A DNA stretch of 5,947 nt from Candidatus Auribacterota bacterium (GTDB lineage Bacteria; Auribacterota; JAFGBW01). A program made the position numbers and the translations under genes. The notes under the pieces are model-generated. The model did no database searches, was not told where the DNA came from, and saw only the letters and a program-made list of their open reading frames with translations. Location of the stretch: the NCBI GenBank assembly GCA_016932965.1, contig JAFGBW010000267.1, forward strand, positions 1 through 5,947, read 5' to 3'. This document shows, piece by piece, positions 2,472-5,947 of this stretch. How positions within the stretch are numbered: the first letter of the stretch is position 1; every line of letters begins with the position of its first letter.

Positions 2472-2499
2472 TTTAAAGACTCATTCAATATGTTATAAT
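2472..2499 (+). promoter_or_regulatory. sigma-70-like extended -10 promoter of the CsgG-FN3 operon
   Basis: TATAAT at 2494-2499 matches the -10 consensus exactly and is preceded by TG at the extended -10 position (TGTTATAAT, 2491-2499). A weak -35, TTTAAA at 2472-2477 (four of six), lies 16 bases upstream. Transcription would start near 2506, giving a leader of about 35 bases. The -35 overlaps a small A/T palindrome (TTAAA-C-TTTAA, 2466-2476) that could be an operator. Confidence 0.65.
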
Positions 2500-2530
2500 T
2501 TTTTTTATTATTCAGATTGACATGGAGAAA

Positions 2531-2536
2531 AAAGGA
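2531..2536 (+). promoter_or_regulatory. ribosome-binding site deciding the CsgG-FN3 start
   Basis: AAAGGA lies 6 bases before the ATG at 2543. Three in-frame ATGs occur (2522, 2537, 2543). The one at 2522 has no site upstream and would sit only ~16 bases after the predicted transcription start; the one at 2537 directly abuts this motif, although a GGAG at 2524-2527 could serve it. The third ATG is therefore preferred. Confidence 0.55.
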
Positions 2537-2542
2537 ATGAAG

Positions 2543-4591
2543 ATGATTGATTCAGTAAAATCGAAATCCGGCTTTGGTCTCATTATATCCTTTCTGCTGA
2601 TTTTCAGTTTCGTATCTTATCTTGATGCTAAAAAACCGGGAAGCTCTCTGGATGTTTTTGTGTCCCCTACAATCAAAAATACGGTTTATGAAAAAATCGC
2701 CGTGCTTCCCTTTAAAGCGCCCACGGAACTGGCCGGATCATCCATTTCGGATTTTTTTACCAATGAAATCCTGAAGACCTATAAATACCAGCTGATTGAA
2801 CGCAGTCAGATAGAAAATATATTCAAAGAACAGGAGATGAATCTGTCAGGGGTAACGGAATCTTCAGTCGCTATCGAAGTGGGTAAAATACTGGGGGTCA
2901 ACGCCACCGTGATCGGGACGGTTTCCGAATACGGTTATCAGCAGTATAAAGCAACTAAACTCCCCTCAGTCGGATTGACGGTCCGGCTCATTGACACCAC
3001 CACCGGAAAAATAGTCTGGAGTGCCAGTGATACTCAGGTGGCTGCCTCTACCCGTCTATCTTTGTCTCAGCATGCCAATAATATGGTGGAGAACATGGTC
3101 TCAGCTATCATGGCCGCCTGTAAAGATATGGGTGATAATAAAGCCACGGCTTTACCGGTCCCGGTCATTTCATCTTACACCGGCGGAGTGCGCAGTGCCG
3201 CTATCACCGTGAATAAGATCAGCTCCGACCTCATCTCTTCTTATGAAATTTTAAGGAGTGTTGTTGATGAACAACAGGGTTATAAGACAGTATCCGTTGA
3301 GTCAAACAGCAAAAAATTGATCGTGTTCCAGGACAAAAACCTGCTGGATTCGACCCTGTATTTTTATAAAGTCCGGACCGTATCCAGGAACGGACTGGTC
3401 GGCAATGAATCCAAACCAGTACAAATTATCACCGAAGGGCCTCCCCCGACACCCAGGAAAGTGAAAGCAGAAAGCGAAATGTTGCGCCAGATACCCTTGT
3501 CCTGGGAACCTCCGGATTACCCTTATCTCTCCGGATATATTATTTACAGAAAGAACGGGTCCTCGGCATTTGGCGAGATCGCAGTCATTAAAAATCCGAA
3601 AACAGCTGATTATCTGGATAAAGAGAGCAGAAAAAACCCGATAGCCGACGACACGGAATACACCTATCAGATCTGTTCGTTCAATACAGCGGGCGTGAAA
3701 AGTCCGCCTTCGAAGGAGTTTTCAGCCGTTACGCTGGCCCTGCCGGTCAAGATCGAAAATCTGGTCTGCCAGAGTGGTTTGGTCAAATCCGTCAGCCTTT
3801 CCTGGGATATCAGCCCGGAACCCCAGACGGCCGGATACAATATTTACCGTTACGATCCAAAGAAAAAAGAGTTTGCCCAGCTGACTATTTTAAAAGGCAG
3901 GGATACGACCAGCTATGTAGACCAGAAAGAGGGTTTTTCCTCTCTTAAAGACGGGACCACTTATCAATACCGTGTTGCCGCCTACTATCGTAAAGATGCG
4001 GAAGGAGTGCTGTCTGATCCTCAAGAAGCCACGACCAAACCGGTTCCCCATAAAGTCAGCGGTTTTACCGCCTCCTCAGGAGAGGTCAAACAGATCACCC
4101 TGACCTGGGATCAAAATCCTGAGGACGATATCACCTATTATCTCATTTTTCGGGGGAATAAGGAAAACAGACTGTCGAAAATAGCCATCGTGCCGGCAGA
4201 ACAACTGACCTATACTGACAGGGACCTGAAAGACGGAACCCAGTATTTCTATGCCGCAGCCGCGCAGGACAAGGATGAATTGCTGGGGGATCAATCCGTC
4301 GGCATGCAGGGCAGTACCAAACCGATTCCGAAAACAGTACAGGGATTGTCCGCAACCATCTCCGGGATATCAGAGATCGTGCTCTCATGGGTCAGAAATC
4401 CGGAAGCGGATATTTCCTGTTATGAGATTCATGAAAATAAATCTTTATTGGGAAAGACCGGTGATACTTCCTGGGTTTATACTGACGGGAAACCGGGCGA
4501 GTCCTATCATTTTTACCTGACAGCAGTTGATGAAGACCAGCTGCGCAGCGAGCCGTGCAAAAAAATAATCGTCAAAATCCCTAAACTTTAA
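2543..4591 (+). CDS. exported CsgG-like protein with five fibronectin type III repeats
   Basis: A 682-residue protein (an upstream ATG at 2522 would add seven residues). Residues 1-29 form a signal peptide: basic start, hydrophobic FGLIISFLLIFSFVSYL, probable cut after LDA; there is no lipobox Cys. Residues ~48-193 are CsgG-like: strand KIAVLPF, then NEILKTYKYQLIERSQIENI, the family hallmark EQEMNLSGV, then GKILGVNATVIGTVSEYG and LTVRLIDTTTGKIVWSASD. Five FN3-like modules follow at about 205-299, 300-399, 401-498, 502-592 and 596-681, each with a central Trp or Ile strand (LSWEP, LSWDI, LTWDQ, LSWVR) and a late Tyr strand (YTYQI, YQYRV, YFYAA, YHFYL); TKPVP/TKPIP linkers join the last three. 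In E. coli CsgG forms the curli secretion pore, but the segments matching its membrane hairpins are short here, so a periplasmic scaffold is more likely. First gene of a three-gene operon. FN3 boundaries are approximate. Confidence 0.85.
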   Translation: MIDSVKSKSGFGLIISFLLIFSFVSYLDAKKPGSSLDVFVSPTIKNTVYEKIAVLPFKAPTELAGSSISDFFTNEILKTYKYQLIERSQIENIFKEQEMNLSGVTESSVAIEVGKILGVNATVIGTVSEYGYQQYKATKLPSVGLTVRLIDTTTGKIVWSASDTQVAASTRLSLSQHANNMVENMVSAIMAACKDMGDNKATALPVPVISSYTGGVRSAAITVNKISSDLISSYEILRSVVDEQQGYKTVSVESNSKKLIVFQDKNLLDSTLYFYKVRTVSRNGLVGNESKPVQIITEGPPPTPRKVKAESEMLRQIPLSWEPPDYPYLSGYIIYRKNGSSAFGEIAVIKNPKTADYLDKESRKNPIADDTEYTYQICSFNTAGVKSPPSKEFSAVTLALPVKIENLVCQSGLVKSVSLSWDISPEPQTAGYNIYRYDPKKKEFAQLTILKGRDTTSYVDQKEGFSSLKDGTTYQYRVAAYYRKDAEGVLSDPQEATTKPVPHKVSGFTASSGEVKQITLTWDQNPEDDITYYLIFRGNKENRLSKIAIVPAEQLTYTDRDLKDGTQYFYAAAAQDKDELLGDQSVGMQGSTKPIPKTVQGLSATISGISEIVLSWVRNPEADISCYEIHENKSLLGKTGDTSWVYTDGKPGESYHFYLTAVDEDQLRSEPCKKIIVKIPKL

Positions 4592-4607
4592 AGATAGAAA
4601 AAAGACC

Positions 4608-5444
4608 ATGAAAAAATCCTGTCTGATCATGACGATGTTTTTTCTTTCATCAATCTGCCTCAGTTCATCTGTTTCAGCTGAAGAAACCGTGAAGCCGCGC
4701 ATCATGATCCTGATGGATGAGAAAAATGTCGGCGGTTATAGTGTCCATCAGGCGGAAATCGACCTGATTTCCTTTTTTACGGAGAAAAATTATCCGGTCA
4801 TTGATACGGAACTGGTTAAAGCCAATTTAAAACGGGACCAGGCCCTGCAGGCCATGAGCGGCAGTAATCAGGCGGCCGCTTCCCTGGGACTGCAGTTCGG
4901 AGCAGACGTCATCATTGTCGGCCGGGCCATTGCCAAAGGATCGGCCACGGTGCTCGGCAAAACCAACATGAGGGCTTATCAGGCCACGGTCACCGCCAAA
5001 GCAATCAGGACAGATACAGCCGGATTGATCGGAACCGCTTCCGGCACAGGATCAAAACCTCATGTGGATGACACGGCAGGAGGTTCCGAAGCCATCGCCG
5101 TTGCCACCAGGCAGATGATAGAAAAACTTTTTCCGCTTATTGAAGAAAAATGGGGGGCGCAAGGGACTTCAGAGAATTCCATCCAGCTTACCATATCGGA
5201 TGTAAACCAGGTATGGCAGCTGGCGGCCTTGAAACGCATGCTGAAAGAAAAGACCCAAAAGACCTCCCAGGTGATCCAGAGGAGTTTTGTGGCCGGGGTC
5301 GCCTCTTTTGAACTCAAAACCGGGTCGGACAGCCAGACTCTGGCGGAAAATCTGGTCATGATCCAGGATGAGGCAATCCGTCTGAAAGTATTGGGTATTT
5401 CAGCCAATAAAATCGATGCCAAACTGATCATGTCTGATGAATAG
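4608..5444 (+). CDS. exported protein with CsgG/FlgT-like N-terminal domain and extra C-terminal domain
   Basis: A 278-residue protein with a standard signal peptide: MKKSCLI, hydrophobic core, probable cut after SVSA at residue 24. Residues ~28-182 repeat the element order of the CsgG-like domain upstream: strand RIMILMDE, helix IDLISFFTEKNYPVIDTELV, helix plus strand AASLGLQFGADVIIVGRAIA, strands AYQATVTAKAIRTDTAGLIGTASG, and a last helix SEAIAVATRQMIEKLFPLI. This is the general fold of TolB-N/FlgT-middle/LpoB-type envelope proteins. Residues ~190-275 look like a separate alpha/beta domain (strand SIQLTISDV, helix, strands around VAGVASFELKT, helix, strand). The molecular role is not known; cellular location is the periplasm or outer membrane face. 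It follows the CsgG-FN3 gene by 16 bases with only a weak ribosome-binding site, and its stop overlaps the next start, so the three genes are one transcription unit. Homology was judged by eye. Confidence 0.7.
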   Translation: MKKSCLIMTMFFLSSICLSSSVSAEETVKPRIMILMDEKNVGGYSVHQAEIDLISFFTEKNYPVIDTELVKANLKRDQALQAMSGSNQAAASLGLQFGADVIIVGRAIAKGSATVLGKTNMRAYQATVTAKAIRTDTAGLIGTASGTGSKPHVDDTAGGSEAIAVATRQMIEKLFPLIEEKWGAQGTSENSIQLTISDVNQVWQLAALKRMLKEKTQKTSQVIQRSFVAGVASFELKTGSDSQTLAENLVMIQDEAIRLKVLGISANKIDAKLIMSDE

Positions 5445-5947
5445 AATCCGTGATATCCTAACCTGTTTTGGACCCGTGCCGGTCGTCTTGTCTGTTTTCT
5501 GGACCGCAGCCTGTCTTTCCGCCAAGCCTGTTGAACGCACCGAACCCAGATACCAGGACACGGAATATCTCATGAGGCAGACCAGGCTTTCCAACGATAA
5601 AAATGAGAGGCAGCTGTATACTTCAGACAGGGACCGGGGTTATTCAGCCGCCTCGTATCAGGAGCTGAACCGCCGGATTCCGCAGGAGCAAAGCGCCAAT
5701 GTCCGTCAGGTGGTAACGGCTGTACAGCAGCAAGAGCAGCGTGAGATTCAGAGTGTGGCACTGCGCTATATCAAAAAAGTAAAAGATGCCATGACCCAGG
5801 AGAATGTTGAGGCACAGCTCCGTCAGCGTTATGAATCGGTCAATCAGGTCATCGACTTGCAGAGACAGGTCAATAACAACCGGATTGATGTTCAGCAGGC
5901 GGAAATCAGAAAGATAGAAGAGTCTCCGGAGTTTCGAACGGCCCGCA
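5437..5947 (+). CDS. exported Gln-rich helical protein, 3' end outside window
   Basis: An open frame from ATG at 5437 to the right edge, 170 codons without a stop. The ATG overlaps the previous gene's stop by 8 bases (ATGAATAG), which indicates translational coupling. Residues 1-29 look like a signal peptide: MNRIRD, then the hydrophobic VPVVLSVFWTAACLSA. Cutting after LSA is possible; TAAC around Cys26 is a poor lipobox, so a lipoprotein is less likely. After a polar stretch (30-75) the sequence becomes strongly helical and Gln/Arg/Glu-rich (e.g. VVTAVQQQEQREIQ, residues 92-105; VIDLQRQVNNNRI, 138-150), consistent with coiled coil. No known family is recognised. As the third exported product of the CsgG-FN3 operon it may be a partner or cargo of the two upstream proteins. 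G+C and codon use look like those of the gene before it. Confidence 0.75.
   Translation, partial: MNRIRDILTCFGPVPVVLSVFWTAACLSAKPVERTEPRYQDTEYLMRQTRLSNDKNERQLYTSDRDRGYSAASYQELNRRIPQEQSANVRQVVTAVQQQEQREIQSVALRYIKKVKDAMTQENVEAQLRQRYESVNQVIDLQRQVNNNRIDVQQAEIRKIEESPEFRTAR

Follow-up and report, generated by a model that had tools for sequence, protein, structure and literature searches.

PelC forms a 12-fold ring that feeds an outer-membrane channel. Its fold recurs in CsgG, known from curli (type VIII) secretion, in TolB, in the middle domain of FlgT and in LpoB, a single small lipoprotein. The mechanism by which very large and RHS-type proteins are placed on the surface of Gram-negative bacteria is often unknown, and a compact pair of ring-fold proteins encoded beside such proteins in several phyla, as described here, is a concrete and testable candidate.

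The operon and its surroundings

The window analyzed here is an entire contig (G000:C55) of 5947 bp, taken from a MAG of 3.14 Mb in 300 contigs that represents an uncultured member of Candidatus Auribacterota. According to the ORF list, it carries three co-oriented, rightward genes, named P1, P2, and P3, with the following features:

2472-2499, + strand: promoter-like site with an extended -10 (TTTAAA, 16 bases, TGTTATAAT), from a consensus scan
2522-4591, + strand: P1, exported protein of 689 aa with a CsgG/PelC-fold domain and about five FN3 domains (ORF, Pfam, relatives)
2648-3136, + strand: CsgG/PelC-fold domain of P1, alignable with relatives (alignment, model, fold comparison)
3161-4588, + strand: FN3 array of P1 (Pfam fn3, five stretches)
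4608-5444, + strand: P2, exported protein of 278 aa with a second CsgG-fold domain and a C-terminal alpha/beta domain
about 4683-5168, + strand: CsgG-fold domain of P2, aa 26-187 (AlphaFold2 model)
aa 188-278 of P2, + strand: C-terminal alpha/beta domain
5437-5947, + strand: N-terminal 170 aa of P3, with no stop, exported, Q-rich, and probably helical (ORF, composition)

The ORF coordinates agree with the places and tight spacing given in the first-pass annotation, with 16 bases between P1 and P2 and an overlap of 8 bases between P2 and P3. The right end of the contig lies inside P3, and the operon is therefore unreadable beyond the N-terminal part of this protein. Genes for a dodecin (1509-1697, - strand) and a glutathione peroxidase (GPx; 1715-2251, - strand), both ordinary, are divergent to the operon, as is a TPR gene. 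Mis-binning of the contig is unlikely, because its tetranucleotide profile correlates more highly with contigs of its own genome (0.72-0.90) than with those of other genomes (0.41-0.77), despite the overlap of the two ranges.

The operon had been described as running from one strong extended -10 promoter. The extended -10 is indeed present, but such sites are no more numerous in the region than expected by chance (three found versus 5.0 in shuffles), so that 2472-2499 is no more than plausible as a promoter. The start of P1 had been placed at 2522; judged from the sequence, the ATG at 2543, with AAAGGA 6 bases upstream, or the one at 2537 is likelier.

Two different proteins of one fold

The description of P1 as a CsgG-FN3 fusion holds, since Pfam recognizes a CsgG domain (6.5e-13) and fn3 over five stretches (9.8e-23) in a protein with a signal peptide. 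The CsgG match reaches 48.9 bits, where the cut-off is 20.8, and is partial, covering positions 35-159 of the 210 in the profile. The Pfam families GNA1162-like and LpoB likewise exceed their cut-offs on P1, whereas the NCBIfam LpoB equivalog does not (30.6 bits versus a cut-off of 110.6). The model of the CsgG domain, with a pLDDT of 85 in a spread of 46 to 85 over five models, contains short core strands only, and alignment with true CsgG from the same genome shows that it lacks the long insertion in which the first membrane hairpin lies. The closest fold, which the first-pass annotation had not named, is that of PelC (Z 16.2, rmsd 2.6, 142 aligned residues, 19% identity), followed by CsgG and FlgT at Z scores of about 11.5. 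PelC proteins are also the top sequence matches of P1 in the PDB (5e-6, phmmer), and a profile of P1 and its relatives gives the same ranking, with PelC first. The signal of the window P1 has no Cys and thus no lipobox, while a lipobox is present in its relatives.

The LpoB match, together with the common fold, would fit a P1 that regulates peptidoglycan synthesis in the manner of LpoB. This role is very improbable, given that LpoB works as a lone small lipoprotein and that the gene clusters of the relatives revealed no conserved association with a penicillin-binding protein.

P2 exceeds the cut-off of no Pfam family, and its profile has no match among PDB sequences. The proposal that it shares the apparent N-terminal fold of P1 nevertheless proved right, because the AlphaFold2 model (mean pLDDT 84) matches the CsgG/PelC/TolB/FlgT-middle fold over aa 26-187, with Z scores of 11.5 for PelC, 11.2 for CsgG and TolB, and 10.5 for FlgT. 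The last of these corresponds to residues 22-187, which superpose on the CsgG/TolB-fold middle domain of FlgT (3w1e). A search with P2 over 384 relatives recovers mostly long FlgT-like proteins. Those of the phylum (about 380-420 aa) are distant relatives of P2, which aligns after their N-terminal domain; P2 begins at the middle domain, and the N-terminal domain of FlgT is absent from it.

P3 had been called a Gln-rich, exported, helical protein, and what can be read of it agrees. Its N-terminus resembles a signal peptide, and the part from residue 37 onward contains 15% Q, three Pro, and one Gly, a composition that makes a helical structure plausible. Searches for P3 in 59 and in 384 genomes returned, besides P3, a single weak match interrupted by stops. 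PADLOC returned no match for P1, P2, P3, or three proteins of the related clusters.

The P1-P2 pair in other genomes and the exported proteins beside it

A scan of genome contigs with the single P2 sequence gave no match, while a profile built from a four-row alignment recovered four loci in Nitrospirota (46-49% identity) and seven in PVC phyla (34-38%). In the four Nitrospirota MAGs, a full-length CsgG-FN3 P1 lies directly upstream of P2, separated by 9-11 bases in three cases and 158 in the fourth. Six PVC loci (L079, L080, L081, L082/L136, L083, and L137) instead have a short, CsgG-only P1 lipoprotein beside P2, as read from the translation for five of them and from match positions only for L137. 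Near the cluster, the verrucomicrobial L081 and the lentisphaeral L136 also hold a CsgG-FN3 copy. In the kiritimatiellotal L138, a CsgG-FN3 P1 is followed by two large exported proteins and then by P2 in one gene run, and no P1 was found in the stretch read of L139.

In the P2 tree, the window protein groups with those of Nitrospirota and PVC in a single clade (99/96), to which none of the Auribacterota FlgT-like proteins belongs. P1 and P2 are thus a real conserved unit of two different CsgG-fold proteins, adjacent in distant phyla, the opposite of the scattered arrangement that would have spoken against a common system. The unit is rare, with three module-level P2 matches among 335 Nitrospirota genomes, followed by a gap to proteins of FlgT length. 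Its patchy occurrence in several phyla points to horizontal transfer.

Two alternatives can be weighed against other loci of the same genome. Since P1 lies above the CsgG family cut-off, the operon could encode a second curli-type (type VIII) secretion system. This reading, already disfavored, is extremely improbable: the membrane hairpin region of P1 is shortened, a true curli operon is present elsewhere, and the 12 related loci contain no match to csgE, csgF, or true CsgG at 1e-6. The window itself had been reported to be free of curlin-like repeats and other csg genes, which is correct. The curli operon sits on a separate contig (L070, G000:C120, 4213-9102) and looks complete, with curlin-repeat genes, csgE (9e-15), csgF (4e-33), and true csgG (7e-65).

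The other alternative is a flagellar-motor accessory of the FlgO/FlgT/FlgP kind, consistent with the distant relationship of P2 to FlgT-like proteins and with the FliF and flagellin genes of the genome. It is quite improbable, because P2 has no FlgT N-terminal domain, a separate FlgT-like/CsgG pair of flagellar type is found on contig C292 (with a Maf-like MptE-domain gene two genes further), and no flagellar gene was recognized among the scanned part of the flanking genes in the related clusters. The analogies drawn earlier to FlgO/FlgT rings and to LpoB-like activators accordingly come down to a shared fold. With a true curli operon and a FlgT/CsgG pair located elsewhere in the genome, the P1-P2 operon is read as neither of the two.

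At each of the 12 related loci, the cluster includes genes for large or multiple exported proteins. The large ones have sequence stretches in common in several groups but are not one family throughout, and matches to Pfam or NCBIfam are nearly absent: Pfam assigned a confident family to none of seven, and NCBIfam to none of five. Cys-rich, ribbon-like motifs close the sequence of several, and glycine-zipper segments occur in some. In eight PVC loci, the genes 3' of P2 encode homologous coiled-coil proteins that are exported and end in a glycine-zipper tail (seven of the eight were aligned, and all eight are related by match). The gene after P2 has a signal-like N-terminus also in L075, L076, L077, and L078, and in L078 it encodes a DUF6531/RHS protein.

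Several of these neighbors deserve individual mention. The next gene in L075 (9495-10655) encodes an exported protein of 386 aa whose C-terminal 90 aa repeat the C-terminal domain of P2 (48% identity). The exported proteins of L081 (1785-6581), L083 (1441-6579), and L082/L136 (8692-13038) are 1400-1700 aa long and have no Pfam match; they carry glycine-zipper segments and Cys-rich C-terminal ribbons, and two of the three have an N-terminal region with a TDTDV-like motif in common. Large Ig-repeat or RHS proteins also follow in Nitrospirota FlgT-like clusters that are related in kind. In the Nitrospirota locus L144 (G694:C366, 3968-11289), LPP20-like genes and a FlgT-like gene are clustered with genes for a DUF6531/RHS protein and for an exported protein of 635 aa that matches no Pfam family. 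In L143, a FlgT-like relative of P2 is followed directly by an exported protein of 1308 aa (G622:C2, 4891-8817) that contains Ig-like, PASTA, and TSP3 domains.

P3 occupies the place after P2 where the PVC loci carry the coiled-coil protein, without showing any homology to it. P3 scores 2.9 bits with an HMM of the PVC helical family and 1.2 bits with one of the tail shared by the large proteins, and a search for this tail in the window's own genome found no relative, an empty result that proves little. The view of the three genes as one assembly is therefore upheld in part: P1 and P2 are a conserved unit, whereas P3, with no relatives beyond the one weak match and no measurable similarity to the PVC exported helical proteins, is no more than a putative member, judged by its position and character.

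A candidate ring and its described counterparts

Two proteins of one fold, conserved as a unit that forms its own clade, are accompanied by exported proteins in every related cluster. By analogy with PelC and CsgG, and from the gene neighborhood, it is possible, at somewhat less than an even chance, that P1 and P2 are two subunits of a periplasmic ring of the PelC/CsgG type at the outer membrane, which exports or anchors the adjacent large proteins. P1 would provide a PelC-like ring domain, an FN3 stalk reaching out from it and, in the relatives, outer-membrane anchoring as a lipoprotein, while P2 would add another ring domain with this fold and, at its C-terminus, an adaptor domain. Such a ring might serve the large helical or glycine-rich exported proteins of its own cluster, either in crossing the outer membrane or in surface anchoring, and in this genome the readable part of P3 would likely be the beginning of a client of this kind or of a helical partner. 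The recurrence of large or multiple exported proteins in 12/12 clusters, the proximity of the P1 domain to PelC, and the lipobox of the P1 relatives argue for the ring. The window P1 without lipobox and the incomplete P3 without homolog argue against it, and a shared fold shows no function. No pore is identified, since no outer-membrane barrel was recognized in the clusters and P1 is without the long hairpin insertion of true CsgG.

The FN3 stalk, the absence of membrane hairpins, and the lipoprotein anchor of the relatives would equally suit a structural scaffold, a periplasmic collar or tether of P1 and P2 that keeps surface proteins in place or makes the envelope more rigid without taking part in transport, resembling the flagellar-motor rings built from the same fold. 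The scaffold is unlikely, and alone it leaves the recurrence of large exported proteins with the pair across phyla unexplained.

Because very large exported proteins of no recognized class accompany the pair in phyla that are far apart, it probably belongs to an undescribed and rarely seen cell-surface machine. The more specific proposal, an undescribed system that exports or displays very large exported proteins at the outer membrane, uses two different PelC/CsgG-fold ring subunits, and is patchily distributed in Nitrospirota, PVC phyla, and Auribacterota, is tentative and somewhat unlikely. A name search found no published description of such a pair; novelty is provisional, as the search omitted most subscription journals.

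Compared with PelC, which forms the lipoprotein ring at the outer membrane in the export of Pel polysaccharide (PDB 5t0z, 5t11, 9h80), the P1 domain has the same fold, likewise has no membrane hairpins, and belongs to a lipoprotein in the relatives. It differs in the added FN3 array, in its pairing with a second ring-fold protein and, in the window, in having no lipoprotein signal; no pel genes were found among the window ORFs scanned or in the partial scan of the relatives' genes. CsgG gives P1 its Pfam family and is similar in fold to both proteins, but true CsgG has the long hairpin insertion, and no csgE, csgF, or curlin gene lies beside P1 in the window. FlgT and FlgT-like proteins, including LipL46-like ones, align with P2 in their middle and C-terminal parts, while P2 is distinguished by the missing N-terminal domain, by its own clade and, as far as the relatives were scanned, by a location away from flagellar genes.

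The NHL-CsgG-FN3 proteins have the same order of CsgG and FN3 as P1 (about 25-31% identity). This family (about 1050 aa) extends across the phylum, with homologs in the Auribacterota genomes G001, G002, G027, G033, and G008. The copy of the window's own genome (L065, G000:C104, 254-3397) joins an NHL propeller, a CsgG-fold domain, and an FN3 array in one exported protein of 1047 aa, and the gene in G002 adjoins ORFs that by eye resemble Pal, YbgF, and TolQ/TolR. In contrast to P1, these proteins begin with an NHL propeller, and no P2 gene was seen in the neighborhoods listed. The FN3 array of P1 is homologous to theirs and to that of the Nitrospirota P1, to which P1 as a whole is nearer (39% identity over the full length). 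If the proposed function is true, the CsgG/PelC fold has been reused as two distinct subunits outside curli, Pel, and flagella.
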